DNA of 64,000 bases. It comes from Planctomycetota bacterium (GTDB lineage Bacteria; Planctomycetota; UBA1135; GCA-002686595). The position numbers and the translations under genes are program-made. The stretch lies in the NCBI GenBank assembly GCA_016795325.1, contig JAEUHY010000015.1:372001-436000 (forward strand). Direction: 5' to 3'. The notes under the pieces are model-generated. The model did not search any database. It was not told the origin of the DNA and saw only the letters and a program-made list of their open reading frames with translations. This document shows, in pieces, positions 31,382-39,821 of this stretch (positions are counted from its first letter, which is position 1; every line of letters starts with the position of its first letter).

Positions 31382-34300
31382 ATGACCCACTCGAAGTACG
31401 CCGTCTGGACCACGTTCGCCCTGGGCATGACTCTGGCCGCCTGCAGCGACGGAGGCGCCTCGAACGGCCCGAACGCCGTGCAGTCGGTGGTGCAGAACCT
31501 GACGCTCGACCCGTCCGGCCACACGACCGTGATCTCGCTGCGCAAATCGGCGGGCACGCTCAGCGCCGCGAACTTCGAGGCGGACGGCGGGCAAGCGCCG
31601 GTCGCCGTGCTCGTCTCGGGCTCGAGCGTGGCGGTCACCTGGGACGAGCGCGTCACGCCCGACCACGAGGTGCGCCTGATCAACGTCGACGGTCTGGCGG
31701 CCGATTTCGTGGCGGTCACGACGACCAACGCGAACGCGCCGACGTTCACGATCACCAGCGCGCAGCAGAATCCCGGCCTGGGCGGCGACGTGCTGATGGC
31801 GCAGTTCAGCGGCGCGCGGCTGGTCGAGGCGCAAGCGGAGGACGAGAGCAACTGGGAGCTGCGCGTCGGTGACGTCGCGCTCTCGCTCGACGGTTCGACG
31901 CTCGACTACAACCCGCTCACGGGCGTGTTCTCGATTGTGACCGGGCCGGGCGCCAACCTGCACTCGAGTTTCACGCTCGCCGCGCTCAGCGTGCAGAGCG
32001 TCGCCGACGTCGAACTCGCGACCACGGCCGTCAACGGCGCGGCCAGCGGCGACAACGCCGTGCCGACGCTGGTCAGCGCCGAGCAGAACCTCGCCGAAGA
32101 CGAGTTCGGTCGCGTGGTCGACTTCACCTTCAGCGAAGCCATGGACCCGGTGTTCGCCGCCGACGCCGGACTGTTCACGGCGAATTCGCCCGACCTCGCG
32201 TTGCTCGTCACCCAGCCCTCGGACGAAGTGCTGCGCGTGCGCTTCAACAACCCGATCGTCCCCGGCGTCGACGACGTGACGCTCACCGGCCTGGTCGATG
32301 TGCACGGCAACGCGCTCGCGAACCAGACCACGGCCGTCGCAGCCGTGAACACGGTGGCCAACGACTTCGACGTCACGCCGCAACTGATCACGGTCGAGAA
32401 CGCCGGCGGCGACTACCTCGAGATCACCTTCCAGCAAGCCCTCGATCCCGATGATGCGGGCGACGCGGCGCACTGGGAGGTGTTCTACGACGCGGGCGGT
32501 GGACTCGCTCCCTACGACCTGTCGTCGGCGACGTTGGACTACGACCTGCTCACCAAGACGCTCACCATCCAACTCGCCGACGACTTCCTGAACGGACAGG
32601 ACTTCCTGTTCGCGGCCGCGAGCCTGAACGAGCCGCGCGACGTCGATGGCGAGCTGTTCTTCGGCTTCGACATCGGCACGGTCAGCGGCGACCTCACGCC
32701 GCCCGCGCCGCTCACCGCGGTGCAGCGCCGCAACCTCGACTCGAGCGGCCGCACGCTCGACATCCGCTTCAGCGAGGATCTCGACGAAGCGAGCGCCGAG
32801 ACGCTGGTCAATTGGAGCGTCGGCGCGCTGAACGTTCAGACGGCCACGCTCATCACGCCGCGCGTCGTGCGCTTGACCGTCGACGATGCGGCGGTCCCCG
32901 GCGACGTGACGATCGCGATCCAGGACCTGCTCGACCTCGCCGGCAACACGCTCACTCCGGTGGCGGCGCTCGCGTTCGGCAGCTCCGACACGCGCGAGCC
33001 CGCGGTCAACGCCGTGCTCGCCCGGGCGATCGAGGGGCTCGAGAACGACACGCTGTTCGTGGCCTTCGACGACACGCTGGTCGAGGGCGAGATCGAGGAC
33101 CCGAGCACTTGGGTGTTCGAATCGCCGGTCGGCACGCTGCTCGATCTGAGCGGCGCGACGGTGAGCTGGGACAGCGGCGCGCGCACTGCGACGCTGGTGC
33201 TCGGCGCGGCCTCGGGGATCGATCTGCAGCGCGACGCGAGCTTCAGCCTCAGCTGGAGCGGCGTTCGGGACCTCGGCGGCAACGCGCTCAGCGCGACGCC
33301 GACGACGGGCGAGATCGACGCCGAAATCGTGCTGCCGAGCGTGATCGCGGTGTGGGTCGACGGCGTCACGCCCAGCCATGTGTGGCTGCGCTTCAGCGAG
33401 CCGTGCCGCAAGCTCGACGACCTCTCCGGGCTCACCGAGTACGAGATCTACGACAACACCGGTCTGCTCAAGGGCGCCGCGGTCAACGCGTTGCCGGAAG
33501 CGGACGGACTGGGCGTCGAACTGATCTTCCCGTTCGCCGTGGTCACCGGTTCCGACACGCTCGGGCTGCGCGGCGTGCAAGACGCGGCCGGCAATCCGTT
33601 GTTCGCCGCCAGCGGTCTCACGACGCAGCCTGAGGCCAGCGCGGCGCCGGCGCTCGACACGTTGGCCTCGAGCCTCACGGCCGTGTCGGGCGAGCGCAAC
33701 GACACGATCGAGCTGGTGTTCGACCGTCCGCTCAGTCCCTGGGGCCTGCTCGACGCGGGGAATTTCGTTGTCGAGCTCAGCGGGCAGCCGCTCGACCAAG
33801 CGGAGACCACTTGGAGCTTCGACGGCGTCGACACGGTCACGATCGCGCTGAACGGTCCGAGCGCTGCAAGCCTGCAGACCGGCGCGGTCTACGACATCAC
33901 GTACCAGAACATCGTCTCGGCGCAGGGCGTCGCGCAGGTCGGAAGCACGACCGTCGCGCTCACCGCCGGCGGCGATGCGTTCCCGCCCGCCCTGCCCGCG
34001 GGTTGGGCGCGGCTCGACGCGGCCAGCCCGACGGACACGCTGCTGGTGACCTTCGACGAAGCGGTCGACAGCGTCAGCGCCGAAGATGTCGGCAACTACC
34101 TGCTCAACGGCGCGACCGCGCCCGACAGCGTCGTGCTCCTTGCTCAACGCACCGTGCGTCTGGATTTCTCCGGCGGCGTCACGGTGGGGGACACGCTCGA
34201 CTTCACGGCCATCGCCGACCTCGCCGGGAACATCGGCCTGGGCAGCCGCGCGGTGTCCGCTGCGGACGTGAGCGGCCCGCTCGTGCTCGGCGCGAGCGCC

Positions 34301-34888
34301 GTCAGCACGCCCGGAGCGGGCGGCGACCAGGTGCGCGTGCAGTTCAACCGCACGATGCTGCTCTCGAGCGTGCTCCAGCCCCAGGCGTACACCGTGCGCG
34401 TCGGTTCGCAGACGTACGACACGTCCTCGGCGCAGGTCGCGTGGGAGAGCGGCTCGTTCTCCGTGGTTCTGACCTTGCCGGCCGGCGAGGACCTGCCCTT
34501 CGGCGCGGTCGTCAACGTCGGGGTCGTCGGCGTGACGGACGTGTCCGGCATGGCGCTCAACCCGGCGGCTTCGATCAACGCGCTGGTGACCGGCGACAAC
34601 GTCGCGCCCGACTTCGCGGCGGCCTTCCTGAACCTGCGCTACTCGCCCTCGGGCAACGCGGTCGACGTGCGCTTCAGCGAGGCGGTCGACGCGGCGTTCG
34701 CGCTCGACGCGCTCAACTGGACCGTGAGCGGCGGCGTCAGCGTGCTCGCCGTCGAGCAGCGTTCGGCCGACCACTTCCGCCTGGAACTGGGCGCGCCGCT
34801 GCCGGTGGGCGGACAACTCGCGTTGAGCGGGCTGCCGGACTTCGCCGGCAACGAGTCGGGCGCGATCAGCATCGTTGTCGCGCGCTGA
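31382..34888 (+). CDS. Large lipoprotein with about ten SbsA-like Ig repeats
   Basis: This 1168-residue protein begins with a lipoprotein signal (FALGMTLAAC, cysteine at about residue 21). The rest is about ten beta-sandwich modules, each with a phrase such as VDFTFSEAMD, LDIRFSEDLD, LLVTFDEAVD or VDVRFSEAVD. These match SbsA/SwmB-type Ig-like domains found in surface-layer and cell-surface proteins. Composition is acidic and cysteine-free after the lipobox, typical of exported proteins. AGGA lies nine bases before the start. It probably projects from the outer membrane; partner unknown. Confidence 0.85.
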   Translation: MTHSKYAVWTTFALGMTLAACSDGGASNGPNAVQSVVQNLTLDPSGHTTVISLRKSAGTLSAANFEADGGQAPVAVLVSGSSVAVTWDERVTPDHEVRLINVDGLAADFVAVTTTNANAPTFTITSAQQNPGLGGDVLMAQFSGARLVEAQAEDESNWELRVGDVALSLDGSTLDYNPLTGVFSIVTGPGANLHSSFTLAALSVQSVADVELATTAVNGAASGDNAVPTLVSAEQNLAEDEFGRVVDFTFSEAMDPVFAADAGLFTANSPDLALLVTQPSDEVLRVRFNNPIVPGVDDVTLTGLVDVHGNALANQTTAVAAVNTVANDFDVTPQLITVENAGGDYLEITFQQALDPDDAGDAAHWEVFYDAGGGLAPYDLSSATLDYDLLTKTLTIQLADDFLNGQDFLFAAASLNEPRDVDGELFFGFDIGTVSGDLTPPAPLTAVQRRNLDSSGRTLDIRFSEDLDEASAETLVNWSVGALNVQTATLITPRVVRLTVDDAAVPGDVTIAIQDLLDLAGNTLTPVAALAFGSSDTREPAVNAVLARAIEGLENDTLFVAFDDTLVEGEIEDPSTWVFESPVGTLLDLSGATVSWDSGARTATLVLGAASGIDLQRDASFSLSWSGVRDLGGNALSATPTTGEIDAEIVLPSVIAVWVDGVTPSHVWLRFSEPCRKLDDLSGLTEYEIYDNTGLLKGAAVNALPEADGLGVELIFPFAVVTGSDTLGLRGVQDAAGNPLFAASGLTTQPEASAAPALDTLASSLTAVSGERNDTIELVFDRPLSPWGLLDAGNFVVELSGQPLDQAETTWSFDGVDTVTIALNGPSAASLQTGAVYDITYQNIVSAQGVAQVGSTTVALTAGGDAFPPALPAGWARLDAASPTDTLLVTFDEAVDSVSAEDVGNYLLNGATAPDSVVLLAQRTVRLDFSGGVTVGDTLDFTAIADLAGNIGLGSRAVSAADVSGPLVLGASAVSTPGAGGDQVRVQFNRTMLLSSVLQPQAYTVRVGSQTYDTSSAQVAWESGSFSVVLTLPAGEDLPFGAVVNVGVVGVTDVSGMALNPAASINALVTGDNVAPDFAAAFLNLRYSPSGNAVDVRFSEAVDAAFALDALNWTVSGGVSVLAVEQRSADHFRLELGAPLPVGGQLALSGLPDFAGNESGAISIVVAR

Positions 34889-35107: not shown

Positions 35108-36202
35108 ATGCAATCTGCAACCCGAGACGAAGCAAGCCTCGAAGCGTTCTTGTCGGCGCTCGAGCACGTAGGCGCCGACGGCGTGCGGCCCGACCTCAAG
35201 GAGCTCGTGGGCCGCGCCACGGCGCTGTTCGACGAGTCGAACGCGAAGGCGCAGTGCCAGGCCTTGATGGAGCGGCTGTCCGCCGATCCCAGCGACCGGC
35301 TCGCGCTCGAGTCGCTGGTCGTGATCGGACTGGCGCAGCCAGAGGTCGCAGCGAGTCTGCGCATTCCGGTCGTGCAGGAGGGGCGTCGACTCGCCGTCCT
35401 GCTCGAGCGCGCCAAGGATCCCGAACGCGCGCAGGCGGTGCTCGAGCTGCTGCTCGCGCGCACGCCCACCGACCGCGCCATCGAACGCGAGCTGTCGGGC
35501 GTCATGCGCCGCAACGGCAACCTCGCGCGGCTCGTCGAGCGCCACCTGGCGCGCGCGGACGAGTGCGTGCGCGAAGGACGGCGCGAGGACGCCGTGCGCT
35601 GGCTGCGCGAAGTGCTGATGCTCGATCCGCAGCGCCGCGACGTGGCGCGCATGATCCGCGACCTCAACTACGCCGACGTCGAGCGCCGCGGCGCGTGGCG
35701 CAAGGGCCTCAAGGCTGCCGCGGTTTCGGTCTTGTGCCTGGGCGCCGTGAGCGGGGTGGTGCTGCGCGAGGTCGACATCGACGCGCGCTTCGAACGCATC
35801 CCCCAGGCGCAGCCGGGAGACTTGGCGGGGATGCAGGCGCGGCTGAACGCGCTCGACGAACTCGTCGCACAGAGCCCGCTGTGGATGGGGCTGTTCCGCG
35901 CCAGCCGTGAACGCGCCGGCCTGCGCGAGCAGGTCGAGAAGCTGCGCGCCGAAGTGGCCGAGCGCGAGACCAAGGAAGCCCAGGCGCGCGCGCTGGCCGC
36001 GACGCTCGCCGAGTCGCAGTACTCGCTCGCGCGGATTGCGGCCGAGAACTACCACTTCCGCGAGATGCGCCAGCATCTCGAAGCGGCGCTGTCGTACGCG
36101 CCGCGCGACTGGTCGGAACGTGCGCAAGTCCAGCGCGAACTCGCGGCGCTCGAAGCGCGCGGGATCGCGGCCCCCACGGCGGCCAAGGGAGAACGACCTT
36201 GA
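35108..36202 (+). CDS. TPR-like helical membrane protein, first gene of the MglA/roadblock cluster
   Basis: The 364-residue protein has a helical N-terminal region (about residues 1-195) with TPR-like pairs (EGRREDAVRWLREVLMLDP). A single membrane helix (about 201-219) follows. Then come a charged coiled coil (about 263-310) and a short C-terminal helical repeat with NYHFREMRQHLEAALSYAPRD. I know no family for the whole. Because the N-terminus carries no signal, it probably sits inside and the C-terminal part outside, or the reverse. It overlaps the next gene by four bases (TTGA), so it is part of the GTPase cluster and may act as its membrane scaffold. Confidence 0.75.
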   Translation: MQSATRDEASLEAFLSALEHVGADGVRPDLKELVGRATALFDESNAKAQCQALMERLSADPSDRLALESLVVIGLAQPEVAASLRIPVVQEGRRLAVLLERAKDPERAQAVLELLLARTPTDRAIERELSGVMRRNGNLARLVERHLARADECVREGRREDAVRWLREVLMLDPQRRDVARMIRDLNYADVERRGAWRKGLKAAAVSVLCLGAVSGVVLREVDIDARFERIPQAQPGDLAGMQARLNALDELVAQSPLWMGLFRASRERAGLREQVEKLRAEVAERETKEAQARALAATLAESQYSLARIAAENYHFREMRQHLEAALSYAPRDWSERAQVQRELAALEARGIAAPTAAKGERP

Positions 36203-37302
36203 GTTTTTTCGAACGCTTGCTCTCCAAGCCGCGCCTGCGCTCCGTGCGCCAGCGCCTGGCCGAGGATTCCAGCGCCAAGAACTATCTCGCGCTGGCGCAG
36301 GAGCACGCCCGCCTGGGCGAGCTCGAGCACGTGCAGCGCGTGTGCGAGGAAGCGCTCGCGCTCTATCCCGGGCACGCCGAACTCACGCGTCTGCTCGAAC
36401 GCTCGCGCGCGCTGGTCGGCGAGGGCCGCACGCGTGCGTTGACGCGCGAACTGCGCGAGGCGCCGCGCCCCGGTCTGTACCGCGAGTTGGCGGAACTGCT
36501 GCTCTCGATGGGCCGCATCGAGCGCGCCGAGGAAGTCGCCGTCGAGTGGTTCGCCCACAACGGCGAAGGCCTGGCGCAGTTGCTGCGCGCCCAGGCGCGT
36601 TACCAGCGCTTCCTCGTCGACCGCCGCCGCGAGGACGGCAAGCTCGTGCAGGAGTTGTGCGACGCCGCGGAGAAGCTCATGCCGCGCGACGAGCGACCGC
36701 TGCGCCTGCGGCTGGAGCTGTGTTCGGCGATCGGCGCGTGGCGCGACGCGCGCAAGGCGGTCTCGCAACTCTTGGAAGGCGCTCCCGGCGATGCGTCGCT
36801 CGAGTCGCGTTTCCGCACCTTGAACGCGCTCGCCGAGAACGCGCCGAGCTTCGACGCGGCGCTGCGCGAAGTGGAGCGCAGCGGCAAGCTCGCGACGGAC
36901 GAGCGCGCGCGGCGGCCGGCGCCGAGCGCGGCCGCGCCACGCTCGATCCGGCCGCTCCTGCAGGAGCTCGCCAGCGGTCCCAACGTGCAGGCCGCAATCT
37001 ACGAGCGTGGTTCGACGGCGCTCGTGCAGGGCGCCAAGGGCGCGACCGCCGAGCGCACGGCGCGCGCGGTGCGCGAGATCGTGAACAAGAGCCGCGCGAC
37101 GGCGCGCCGGCTCGGCGCGGGCGCGCCGCTCTCGGTGGAGCTCGAGGGCGACTTCGGCAGCGTGATGATCGCGCCGGACGACACGGGGTCCGCGGCGCTG
37201 TGGACCACTCGACCCGCGCTCACCGCGGCCCAGCGCCAGGCGCTGCTCGAACTGGTCGGGGCCGGAGTGGACGCCGAACTGTCCAGCGAGGAGGCCGCAT
37301 GA
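36199..37302 (+). CDS. TPR protein with C-terminal roadblock-like domain
   Basis: This 367-residue soluble protein has TPR-like helical repeats in its first 220 residues (YLALAQEHARLGELEHVQR and similar), a linker rich in Ala/Pro/Arg, and a C-terminal domain (about 250-355) that resembles roadblock/LC7 (IYERGSTALVQGA, LSVELEGDFGSVMIA, ALWTTRP). Roadblock domains dimerise and regulate small GTPases, as MglB does for MglA. The TTG start (36199) has AAGGGAG upstream and overlaps the previous stop. It overlaps the next roadblock gene too (ATGA). The likely role is a scaffold or GAP-like regulator for the GTPase encoded next; this is inference. Confidence 0.7.
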   Translation: MSFFERLLSKPRLRSVRQRLAEDSSAKNYLALAQEHARLGELEHVQRVCEEALALYPGHAELTRLLERSRALVGEGRTRALTRELREAPRPGLYRELAELLLSMGRIERAEEVAVEWFAHNGEGLAQLLRAQARYQRFLVDRRREDGKLVQELCDAAEKLMPRDERPLRLRLELCSAIGAWRDARKAVSQLLEGAPGDASLESRFRTLNALAENAPSFDAALREVERSGKLATDERARRPAPSAAAPRSIRPLLQELASGPNVQAAIYERGSTALVQGAKGATAERTARAVREIVNKSRATARRLGAGAPLSVELEGDFGSVMIAPDDTGSAALWTTRPALTAAQRQALLELVGAGVDAELSSEEAA

Positions 37303-37793
37303 ACGAAGTGCTCGATCCGTTGCTGCGCGTGCCCGGCGTGCGCTGCGTCGTGCTCGGCACGCCCGACGGCGTTCCGATCGCCTCCGGCGGCGACTTGAGC
37401 CTGACCGTCGCGGCCGAGCCCGAACTCGGCGGCGGACTGGGCGCGGACGCGGTCTGCGGCCTCGTCGCGGGCTGGCTCGCCTCGCTCGGCCCATCGCTCG
37501 GCCTGGTCGCGTGGGATCTGCCGCAGCGCATCGTCCTGCGCGCCGCGCGCAACACGATCGTGGTGCGCCGCAGCCCCAACGCCCTCCTGATCGCGATGCT
37601 CGATCCCGGCGCGCAAGCCGAGGACTTGCGGCTGCCGATGGAGGGCGCACTCGCGCGACTTCAGCGTGTCGCGCGCCGTCCACGCACGAGTTCGCCGCCT
37701 CCGGCGCTGCCCTCGCGTGACTCGCACAAAGGTCCGGCGTCGGAGAACGCCGATAACGACGTCCTTCCATTCGCCAACGAATTGCCCGGCTGA
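37299..37793 (+). CDS. Roadblock/LC7-domain protein
   Basis: This 164-residue protein has a roadblock/LC7 domain in its first 125 residues: VLDPLLRVPGVRCVVLGTPDG and SLGLVAWDLPQRIVLR are typical for the first helix-strand and later strands. The last 40 residues are a polar tail rich in Ser, Pro and Arg. It overlaps the preceding gene (ATGA) and has AGGAGG before the start. The MglA-type gene begins six bases after its stop. It is a likely partner of that GTPase, as MglB is in Myxococcus. Confidence 0.8.
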   Translation: MNEVLDPLLRVPGVRCVVLGTPDGVPIASGGDLSLTVAAEPELGGGLGADAVCGLVAGWLASLGPSLGLVAWDLPQRIVLRAARNTIVVRRSPNALLIAMLDPGAQAEDLRLPMEGALARLQRVARRPRTSSPPPALPSRDSHKGPASENADNDVLPFANELPG

Positions 37794-37799
37794 TACCCC

Positions 37800-39281
37800 A
37801 TGGTCCAGATCAACTTCGCTCAGAAGCAGGTCAGCGCCAAGATCGTCTACTACGGGCCCGGAATGTCGGGCAAGACGACGAACTTGGAGGTGATCCACCA
37901 ACGCGCCCCTGACCAAAACAAGGGCGAGCTCACCAGCATCTCGACGGACGGCGACCGCACGCTGTTCTTCGACTTCATGCCCCTCGACCTGGGAACGGTC
38001 GCGGGGATGAAGACCTCGTTCCAGATCTACACCGTTCCAGGCCAGGTCTACTACAACTCGACGCGCAAGCTCGTGTTGCAGGGCGTGGACGGAGTGGTGT
38101 TCGTCGCCGACTCGTCGGCCTCGATGCTGAACGAGAACCTCGAGTCGCTGCGCAACCTCGAGGAGAACCTCAACGAGTACGGCAAGAGCCTGGCGACGAT
38201 CGCGCACGTGATCCAATACAACAAGCGCGACTTGCCCGACGCGATGAGCGTCGAGGAACTCGCCGCGCACCTCAACCTGCACGGCGCGCCGCACTACGAG
38301 GCGATCGCCAACACGGGTCAGGGTGTGTTCCCGACGCTCAAGGCGCTCGCCGCGCGCGTCCTCGAGATGATCCACGCGCAGTCGGCGAGCCGCGGGGCCG
38401 CTCCGGCGCCGGCCCCGGCCGCGCGCCCGCAGGTGGGCGCACCGCAGCCCCAGGCGCCGTTGCCGCAGATGACGCGTCCGGTGCAGGCTCAGCCTGTTGC
38501 TCCGGCGGTCGCCGCAGCGGCCGCGGCCCAGACGCCGTCGCGCATTCAGCTCAATCCGCAGCGTCAGCCGGCGGGGCAGCCCGCGCTCGGCCAGACGGGC
38601 TTCCGTACGCCGCCGGCGCCGCCGATGCAGCCTCCGCCGCCGATGCAGGCGCCGGTACTGCAGCAGCCGCAGCCCATGCAGGCGCCGATGGCCCCGCCGC
38701 CGATGATGCAGGCGCCGGTGCTGCAAGCGCCGCCGCCGATGCAGGCGCCCGCACCGCAGACGCCGATGAGCGCCACCGGACTGCACCCCAACTACAACCC
38801 GAACGTGCAGCCGCTCCACGCCACGGGCGTCACGCCGCAGGCGTACGCTCAAGCGCCGGTCGCACCGCTCGCGCCGCAGCCGCTCGCGCAGCCGCAGTAC
38901 GCTCCGCAGCAGCCCGACTACGGGCAGCCGCAGGCGGAGTACGGCCAGCAGCCGCAGGGCTACGCGCAGCCCGCGTACGCTCCGCCGCAGCAGCAGCCGC
39001 AGTCGTTCGCAGCGCCGGCCCAGCCGGCGAACCTGCACCTCGCCGGACGCGCGTCCGCGCCGTCCGCGCCCAAGAACGTCCGCTCCGGCGCGGTGCCGCA
39101 GCCGCTCGAAGGCACGCGCTTCCGCCCGCGCGGCGGCGCAGGCCAAGCGCCCGGCGCCCGCTCGGAGGCGCGTCCGACGCCCGCTCGCACCACGTCGAGC
39201 AAGTTGTTCGTCGGAGTGTTCGTCGCGGCCGGCGTGATCCTCGCGGCCGGCGTGGCGTACCTCGCCGTCTCGTTCCTCTAG
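37800..39281 (+). CDS. MglA-type Ras-like GTPase with proline-rich linker and C-terminal membrane anchor
   Basis: The first 192 residues are an MglA-family GTPase: P-loop GPGMSGKTT (19-27), the TVPGQ switch II motif (78-82, with Thr where Ras has Asp, as in MglA of Myxococcus), and NKRD (141-144). Family length is about 195 residues, but this protein has 493. Residues about 195-465 are low complexity, rich in Pro, Gln, Ala and Met. The last 20 residues (FVGVFVAAGVILAAGVAYLA) form one membrane helix, making a tail-anchored protein. The cluster encodes three roadblock proteins, the known kind of MglA regulator. The function may be cell polarity, motility or envelope organisation; the membrane tethering is inferred. 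Confidence 0.88.
   Translation: MVQINFAQKQVSAKIVYYGPGMSGKTTNLEVIHQRAPDQNKGELTSISTDGDRTLFFDFMPLDLGTVAGMKTSFQIYTVPGQVYYNSTRKLVLQGVDGVVFVADSSASMLNENLESLRNLEENLNEYGKSLATIAHVIQYNKRDLPDAMSVEELAAHLNLHGAPHYEAIANTGQGVFPTLKALAARVLEMIHAQSASRGAAPAPAPAARPQVGAPQPQAPLPQMTRPVQAQPVAPAVAAAAAAQTPSRIQLNPQRQPAGQPALGQTGFRTPPAPPMQPPPPMQAPVLQQPQPMQAPMAPPPMMQAPVLQAPPPMQAPAPQTPMSATGLHPNYNPNVQPLHATGVTPQAYAQAPVAPLAPQPLAQPQYAPQQPDYGQPQAEYGQQPQGYAQPAYAPPQQQPQSFAAPAQPANLHLAGRASAPSAPKNVRSGAVPQPLEGTRFRPRGGAGQAPGARSEARPTPARTTSSKLFVGVFVAAGVILAAGVAYLAVSFL
38621..38760 (+). repeat. Imperfect PPPMQAP-type repeats in the GTPase linker
   Basis: Inside the GTPase gene, units encoding PPPMQ, MQAPVLQ, MQAPMAPPP, MQAPVLQAP and PPPMQAPAP follow one another with shared DNA words such as CCGCCGATGCAGGCGCC. 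They extend the unstructured linker and could vary in number by slippage. Confidence 0.75.
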
Positions 39282-39317
39282 CCTCTCCGCCGCACGCACC
39301 ACGAGCACACTCCGCAC

Positions 39318-39821
39318 ATGGCCCGCGACCAAGATCTTCGCCACAGTCGGCTCGTCTTCTACGCCCGCGACGTCCAGCGCCTCGACGGCGAGTTGGACGC
39401 GTTCCTCGAGCTCTCGAACGCGCGCAGCGCGTTGTTGATCGACAAGGAGGGGCACCTCGTCACGCGCCGGGGCGAGCCGATCCAGGCCGGCTCGGTGGAG
39501 TCCATCGCGGCGCTCGTGGCGGGCTCGTTCGCCGCGACCCGAGAGATGGCGCGCCTGCTGGGCGAGCAGGAATTCACCAGCCTGTTCCACCAGGGCCAGC
39601 GGGACTCGATCCAGCTGCAGCTGATCGGCGACCGCACCCTGCTGGCGATCGTGTTCGACGAACGGACCAACCTGGGCCTGGTGCGCTTCTACGTGCAGGA
39701 GGCGGCGCGCAACATCGAACAGGTGCTGGTCGAACTCGCCGAGCAGCGTCCCGGCGAGGGGGAGCAGCTCTCCGAGCACTTCGGGGCGGACGCCGCCGCC
39801 GCCCTGGACAAGATTCTCTGA
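39318..39821 (+). CDS. Roadblock/LC7-domain protein (MglB-like)
   Basis: This 167-residue protein has the roadblock fold in its first 140 residues. NARSALLIDKEGHLVTRRG and IQLQLIGDRTLLAIVFDERTNLGLVRFYVQEA correspond to the central strands and helix of MglB and related proteins. The C-terminal tail is acidic. It follows the GTPase by 36 bases and closes the cluster. In Myxococcus, MglB is the GAP of MglA and helps set polarity; I assume a similar role. Confidence 0.85.
   Translation: MARDQDLRHSRLVFYARDVQRLDGELDAFLELSNARSALLIDKEGHLVTRRGEPIQAGSVESIAALVAGSFAATREMARLLGEQEFTSLFHQGQRDSIQLQLIGDRTLLAIVFDERTNLGLVRFYVQEAARNIEQVLVELAEQRPGEGEQLSEHFGADAAAALDKIL

Follow-up and report, generated by a model that had tools for sequence, protein, structure and literature searches.

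What do five adjacent planctomycete genes, one of them encoding an MglA-type GTPase, do together, and do they form one membrane-bound switch? Most of what is understood about Ras-like switches in bacteria comes from Myxococcus, whose MglA has no tail in the membrane and whose MglA partners are not encoded as one unit. Here one conserved cassette appears to package an entire switch together with its membrane anchor and a probable receptor. The five genes, called A to E in the following, all lie on the plus strand at positions 35108-39821 of the window, by which we mean the whole stretch of 64,000 nucleotides that was analysed.

Organisation of the cluster

The cluster starts with gene A (35108..36202; stop codons are included for all five genes), followed by gene B (36199..37302), gene C (37299..37793), gene D (37800..39281) and gene E (39318..39821). 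Genes A and B overlap by four bases, and so do B and C, while C and D are separated by six bases and D and E by 36 bases. A sequence-only reading of this DNA had described five adjacent plus-strand genes with two four-base overlaps and a six-base gap in front of the GTPase gene, and this description is exact. Its assignments of D as an MglA-type GTPase, of E as a roadblock protein and of A as a TPR/coiled-coil membrane protein, and its count of two proteins with membrane helices (A and D), also agree with the profile matches and hydropathy predictions given below. Gene B has a TTG start; its homologues start at the equivalent codon, which in most of them is ATG or GTG. The coding overlaps recur more than chance would suggest, as A and B overlap at 46 of 95 loci and B and C at 75 of 102. 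Judged from the gene spacing, the five genes would be an operon-like unit that is presumably expressed from a single transcript.

Upstream of the cluster the window encodes a large predicted lipoprotein-like protein (31382-34888, plus strand) with an LAAC motif after its start. It has no Pfam match, and related sequence was found in 27 of 43 near loci and in none of the 20 distant loci.

The GTPase and its MglB-type partner

Residues 3-191 of the D protein align to the PDB MglA structure 5ymx without gaps and with an E value of 2e-66, and the Myxococcus residue numbering is therefore valid for D. The GTPase domain (residues 1-191; 37800..38372, plus strand) carries the P-loop residues K25/T26, the arginine finger R53, T78, Q82 and the NKxD motif. 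With the exception of R53 these residues are invariant among 111 homologues, and R53 itself is kept in 103 of them, the eight exceptions having A or S; the R53-less MglAs thus equal in number the eight loci with a kinase-fused paralogue described below. The MglA family (Group 1-like) is recognized by an MglB-type gene within four genes, and here E directly adjoins D. By its sequence match, its residues and its neighbour, D is a canonical MglA-type GTPase (Group 1-like). At 493 aa it lies outside the class of small single-domain MglAs (<240 aa), and the published MglA family also holds longer members (PMC4316618).

After the GTPase domain, D continues with a Pro/Gln/Ala-rich linker of about 280 residues and ends in a hydrophobic helix (residues 469-487; 39204..39260, plus strand), by which the protein is predicted from hydropathy to be anchored in the membrane. 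A tail helix was found in the same way in 84 of the 90 complete cassette MglAs, a set made up of 98 sequences minus eight kinase-fused paralogues. In two low-GC relatives (L177 and L185) the MglA ends in a lysine-rich tail in place of the helix.

Two further arrangements of MglA were observed. Loci L064-L071 in the sister families f3, f6 and f7 encode another MglA paralogue, 585-644 aa long, and the one that was scanned (L064:4682-6613, minus strand) is a fusion with the histidine kinase domains HisKA and HATPase_c. At a locus of genome G015, one 616 aa open reading frame (L048:1015-2862, minus strand) unites MglA with a membrane helix and a roadblock domain of MglB type, which is possibly a D-E fusion or the result of a lost stop codon.

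The E protein matches the Pfam family Robl_LC7 at 48.8 bits and PDB MglB with an E value of 1e-25, and it scores 95.2 bits against NCBIfam NF052242, below the MglB equivalog cut-off of 200 bits. We regard E as an MglB-type partner of D and as the sole GAP candidate of the cluster.

Roadblock domains in the B and C proteins

The B protein contains TPRs (an array at residues 3-238) and a weak match to Robl_LC7 of 17.9 bits, and the C protein matches the same family at 19.3 bits, both below the Pfam cut-off of 23. Among the homologues, Robl_LC7 was matched by 8 of 32 B proteins and by 27 of 32 C proteins. The sub-cut-off scores are backed by predicted structures, as the AlphaFold2 models of B and C (mean pLDDT 93.7 and 85.5, respectively) both have the roadblock order alpha-beta-beta-alpha-beta-beta-beta-alpha. 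The top PDB matches of the C model are MglB chains (Foldseek E 1e-8; TM 0.72-0.80 on target), and it also matches LAMTOR chains. With the whole B model Foldseek returned TPR chains only, and the roadblock part surfaced in VIA-align, where residues 248-362 (36940..37284, plus strand) match the roadblock protein 3kye_C with a Z score of 14.9 and an rmsd of 2.5 over 115 residues, and 9jue_B with a Z score of 14.4. Profile comparison matches C to E at 97% probability and B moderately to C; no match was found between the B profile and an MglB-type alignment. MglC (7ct3) comes up with the C profile at no better than E 0.99, and many other roadblocks rank above it.

As modelled, the C-terminal domain of B and the C protein are roadblock folds. 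A lack of this fold in structural models had been named beforehand as one of two outcomes that would refute the reading of the cluster, and the models show the fold in both proteins. The suggestion that the GTPase has three candidate regulators can be refined: the cluster does encode three roadblock proteins, but only E is a candidate GAP, and the divergent roadblocks of B and C have more the look of scaffold components.

Gene A is a shortened adaptor

The A protein of the window has TPRs (Pfam E 9e-6) N-terminal of a single membrane helix at approximately residues 201-219 (35708..35764, plus strand; from hydropathy) and a coiled coil C-terminal of it. The helix is present in 89 of 96 A homologues, 87 of which are richer in K/R on its N side, and this charge excess places the TPR half of A on the inside of the membrane as a prediction. 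In sister and distant families gene A encodes a protein of approximately 1,050-1,190 aa with the order DUF4388, TPRs, membrane helix, more TPR/coiled-coil, often PEGA, and a PQQ-type propeller. We take DUF4388 to be, probably, the PATAN domain. Most of the phylum has this long form, whose inner DUF4388 domain and outer, sensor-like PEGA/PQQ propeller give it the look of a transmembrane receptor or scaffold. The A protein of the window's family corresponds to the middle of the long form only, and by this comparison of sequences it is a family-specific shortened form of a large transmembrane adaptor; as DUF4388 and the propeller have been lost, a receptor role is doubtful in this family.

The window's genome encodes a single DUF4388 protein of 1,053 aa, located about 0.38 Mb from the cluster (G000:C59:785872-789030, minus strand; L073:2873-6031). 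Its layout is broadly that of the long A proteins, which it matches weakly (best E 5e-8). The idea that it is the missing portion of A, moved elsewhere in the genome, was set aside; it may be a separate paralogue.

Conservation of the cassette in Planctomycetota

Named genomes were scanned with the GTPase domain, using a close-relative query, and the best 80 loci were taken. The matches belong to Planctomycetota and include Poly30 of the Saltatorellus clade, Pla163 and Pla86. The full five-gene set is present in 61 of these best 80 loci, so that the neighbourhood search proposed from the sequence did recover the cluster in relatives, and the second refuting outcome named beforehand, a neighbourhood that is not conserved, did not occur. 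A further 18 of the 80 are short of one or two genes at the ends, as expected from truncation at contig ends. In genome G022 (L063/L150) the cassette is reduced to a short A, D and a divergent E (24% identity) as its recognisable members, and B and C are missing. Four loci were listed with the order 12354, but there gene 5 is enclosed in a very long open frame that moves its midpoint, and we read them as having the standard gene order. In a wider sample MglA is present in 151 of 392 Planctomycetota genomes, and B lies no more than 2.6 kb from MglA in 125 of the 142 genomes with a best place listed.

Among the near loci of the same order the genes flanking the cassette are often kept as well (MetG, acyl-CoA dehydrogenase, HU and L28; 18-38 of 43 loci). 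Synteny within the order was therefore rejected as proof of coupling, and the argument was based on distant loci instead. At 20 loci from distant families the gene order is constant in every case in which an uninterrupted stretch holds the full set, while none of seven neighbours from the window is present; at two loci (L167 and L169) relatives of gene A are found downstream. When a sixth conserved gene was sought at these 20 loci, none occurred in more than five. The extra genes near the distant cassettes encode generic regulators, kinases and sulfatase-like proteins, seen at four or five loci, and no cytoskeletal gene is linked to the cassette there. An ancient Planctomycetota switch unit is the best reading of these results.

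One AT-rich genome (G121, a single contig of 9,503,417 bp; loci L177, L188, L191, L192, L195, L198, L200 and L202-L205) has ten MglA-type matches, one of them beside a full cassette and several in open frames of 776-1267 aa. Ca. Uab amorphum is an engulfing planctomycete with a genome of 9.5 Mb (PMC6906331), and G121, which agrees with it in size and composition, is probably this organism.

Co-occurrence with DUF4388 and pilus genes

Of 41 order-level genomes, 35 contain DUF4388 together with MglA, and the same six lack both. Two independent sets of six absences would coincide by chance with a probability of about 2e-7, a figure to be read with the fact that four of the six absences fall within one family and that the absence events are therefore not independent. 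Roadblock genes follow the presence of MglA and DUF4388 with the exception of one 67%-complete genome, and MglA, roadblock and DUF4388 are missing together from family f5 (G028, G032, G036 and G039) and from G014 and G017.

As PilT is present in all 41 order-level genomes and hence uninformative, PilM was used for the link to pili. It is found in 145 of 151 MglA-positive genomes as compared with 163 of 241 other genomes, in statistics that ignore kinship. In the f5 genomes PilM, too, is missing at the cut-off used, whereas G014 and G017 retain it and are among many genomes that have PilM without MglA.

Relation to known systems

The GTPase, MglB, roadblock and TPR proteins are of known kinds, and the five-gene packaging is a new variant of the MglA/MglB theme. 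The closest parallels are in the Myxococcus xanthus MglA/MglB module with RomY, MglC and SgmX, which shares an MglA with the same catalytic residues, an MglB-type partner, extra roadblock proteins and a TPR protein. It differs in that Myxococcus MglA is 195 aa long without a tail helix, whereas D has the linker and the membrane helix, in that the TPR protein here (B) itself bears a roadblock domain, and in that the present unit of five genes includes a membrane adaptor. The actinobacterial conservon (CvnA-D) likewise unites a Ras-like GTPase, a roadblock protein and a membrane protein in an operon, but the cassette has neither a histidine kinase nor a CvnC-like protein and thus falls outside the conservons, and its membrane protein is of a different type (TPR/DUF4388/propeller). 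To Ragulator (LAMTOR)/Rag there is at most a likeness in working, as roadblocks hold a Ras-like GTPase at a membrane; here protein helices would provide the anchor and the GTPase belongs to the MglA family and not to the Rags, with no sign of a common origin of the systems.

The survey of Group 1 and 5 MglA proteins by Wuichet and Sogaard-Andersen (PMC4316618) reports PATAN genes near some MglA genes, an occasional neighbourhood that the cassette would share with DUF4388 as PATAN. The neighbourhoods described there for Groups 1 and 5 are varied, and its main text has no Planctomycetes, five-gene order, tail anchor or PQQ-bearing adaptor. In the literature searched, which included few subscription journals, we found no description of the packaging, the MglA tail helix, the TPR-roadblock protein or the propeller adaptor.

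A proposed mechanism and its alternatives

We favour, with moderate confidence, a reading in which the five genes encode a membrane-bound MglA/MglB switch with a transmembrane adaptor, the likeliest output being type IV pili or surface motility. D would be held at the inner membrane by its C-terminal helix on a long flexible linker, and its on/off state would for this reason act locally at the membrane. E would stimulate GTP hydrolysis and so reset D. The products of the overlapping genes B and C probably pair via their roadblock domains, and the pair would join the GTPase to the TPR array of B, while the single-pass A protein would place the complex in the envelope; the direction of signalling across the membrane is one that we infer. 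A membrane-localised GTPase switch, as proposed from the sequence, is thus supported as the best reading with a topology predicted by hydropathy, and the polarity or envelope function suggested along with it may apply.

The output would be the placing or activation of type IV pili or another surface-motility machine, in analogy with MglA and SgmX of Myxococcus. In that organism MglA recruits the TPR protein SgmX, which has 14 TPRs, leading to pilus formation (PMC11580455). MglB is the GAP of MglA, and RomY, a roadblock protein, joins MglB in a GAP complex (PMC9481161). In Synechocystis, PATAN domains bind the pilus motor PilB (PMC10519157). Pili or surface motility as output is nevertheless a guess of moderate strength, because the PilM association ignores kinship and many genomes with PilM have no MglA. 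A wider proposal, which we offer tentatively and consider rather less likely to hold, is an ancient receptor-to-Ras module in which a propeller reading the envelope or surface would act through the helix, DUF4388/TPR and paired roadblocks on a tail-anchored MglA and from there on pili, polarity or shape, deep in Planctomycetota and including shape-changing and probably prey-engulfing lineages.

The same membrane-bound switch might instead govern cell shape, the cytoskeleton or envelope remodelling. This is a live rival because members of the Saltatorellus clade, to which the cassette carrier Poly30 belongs, change shape (PMC11481906, PMC11032199), and the putative Ca. Uab amorphum genome, from an organism that engulfs (PMC6906331), has the cassette and its ten MglA-type matches. 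We nevertheless judge it unlikely, perhaps one chance among several, as the cassette occurs far beyond the lineages that change shape, the distant loci show no cytoskeletal gene linked to it, and the DUF4388/PATAN and TPR partners suggest pili in other bacteria. Less probable again is an envelope-signalling relay that, as in actinobacterial conservons, has gene expression or metabolism as its output and no role in motility: the GTPases of conservons work with sensor kinases in the membrane (PMC4316618), and the separate MglA-histidine kinase fusion occurs in sister families, but the conserved members of the cassette include no kinase, response regulator or DNA-binding protein. That the five genes are adjacent by general synteny alone and have no joint function would agree with the kept flanks within the order, but it is nearly refuted by the distant loci, which keep the cassette and none of the seven neighbours, by the conserved coding overlaps, and by the coinciding absences of MglA, roadblock and DUF4388 genes.

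Under the favoured reading of a membrane-bound switch, the occurrence of the cassette in shape-changing and probably prey-engulfing Planctomycetota makes it a candidate regulator of those behaviours, and the cultured carriers Pla86, Pla163 and Poly30 make the tethering of the GTPase and the signalling across the membrane accessible to experiment.
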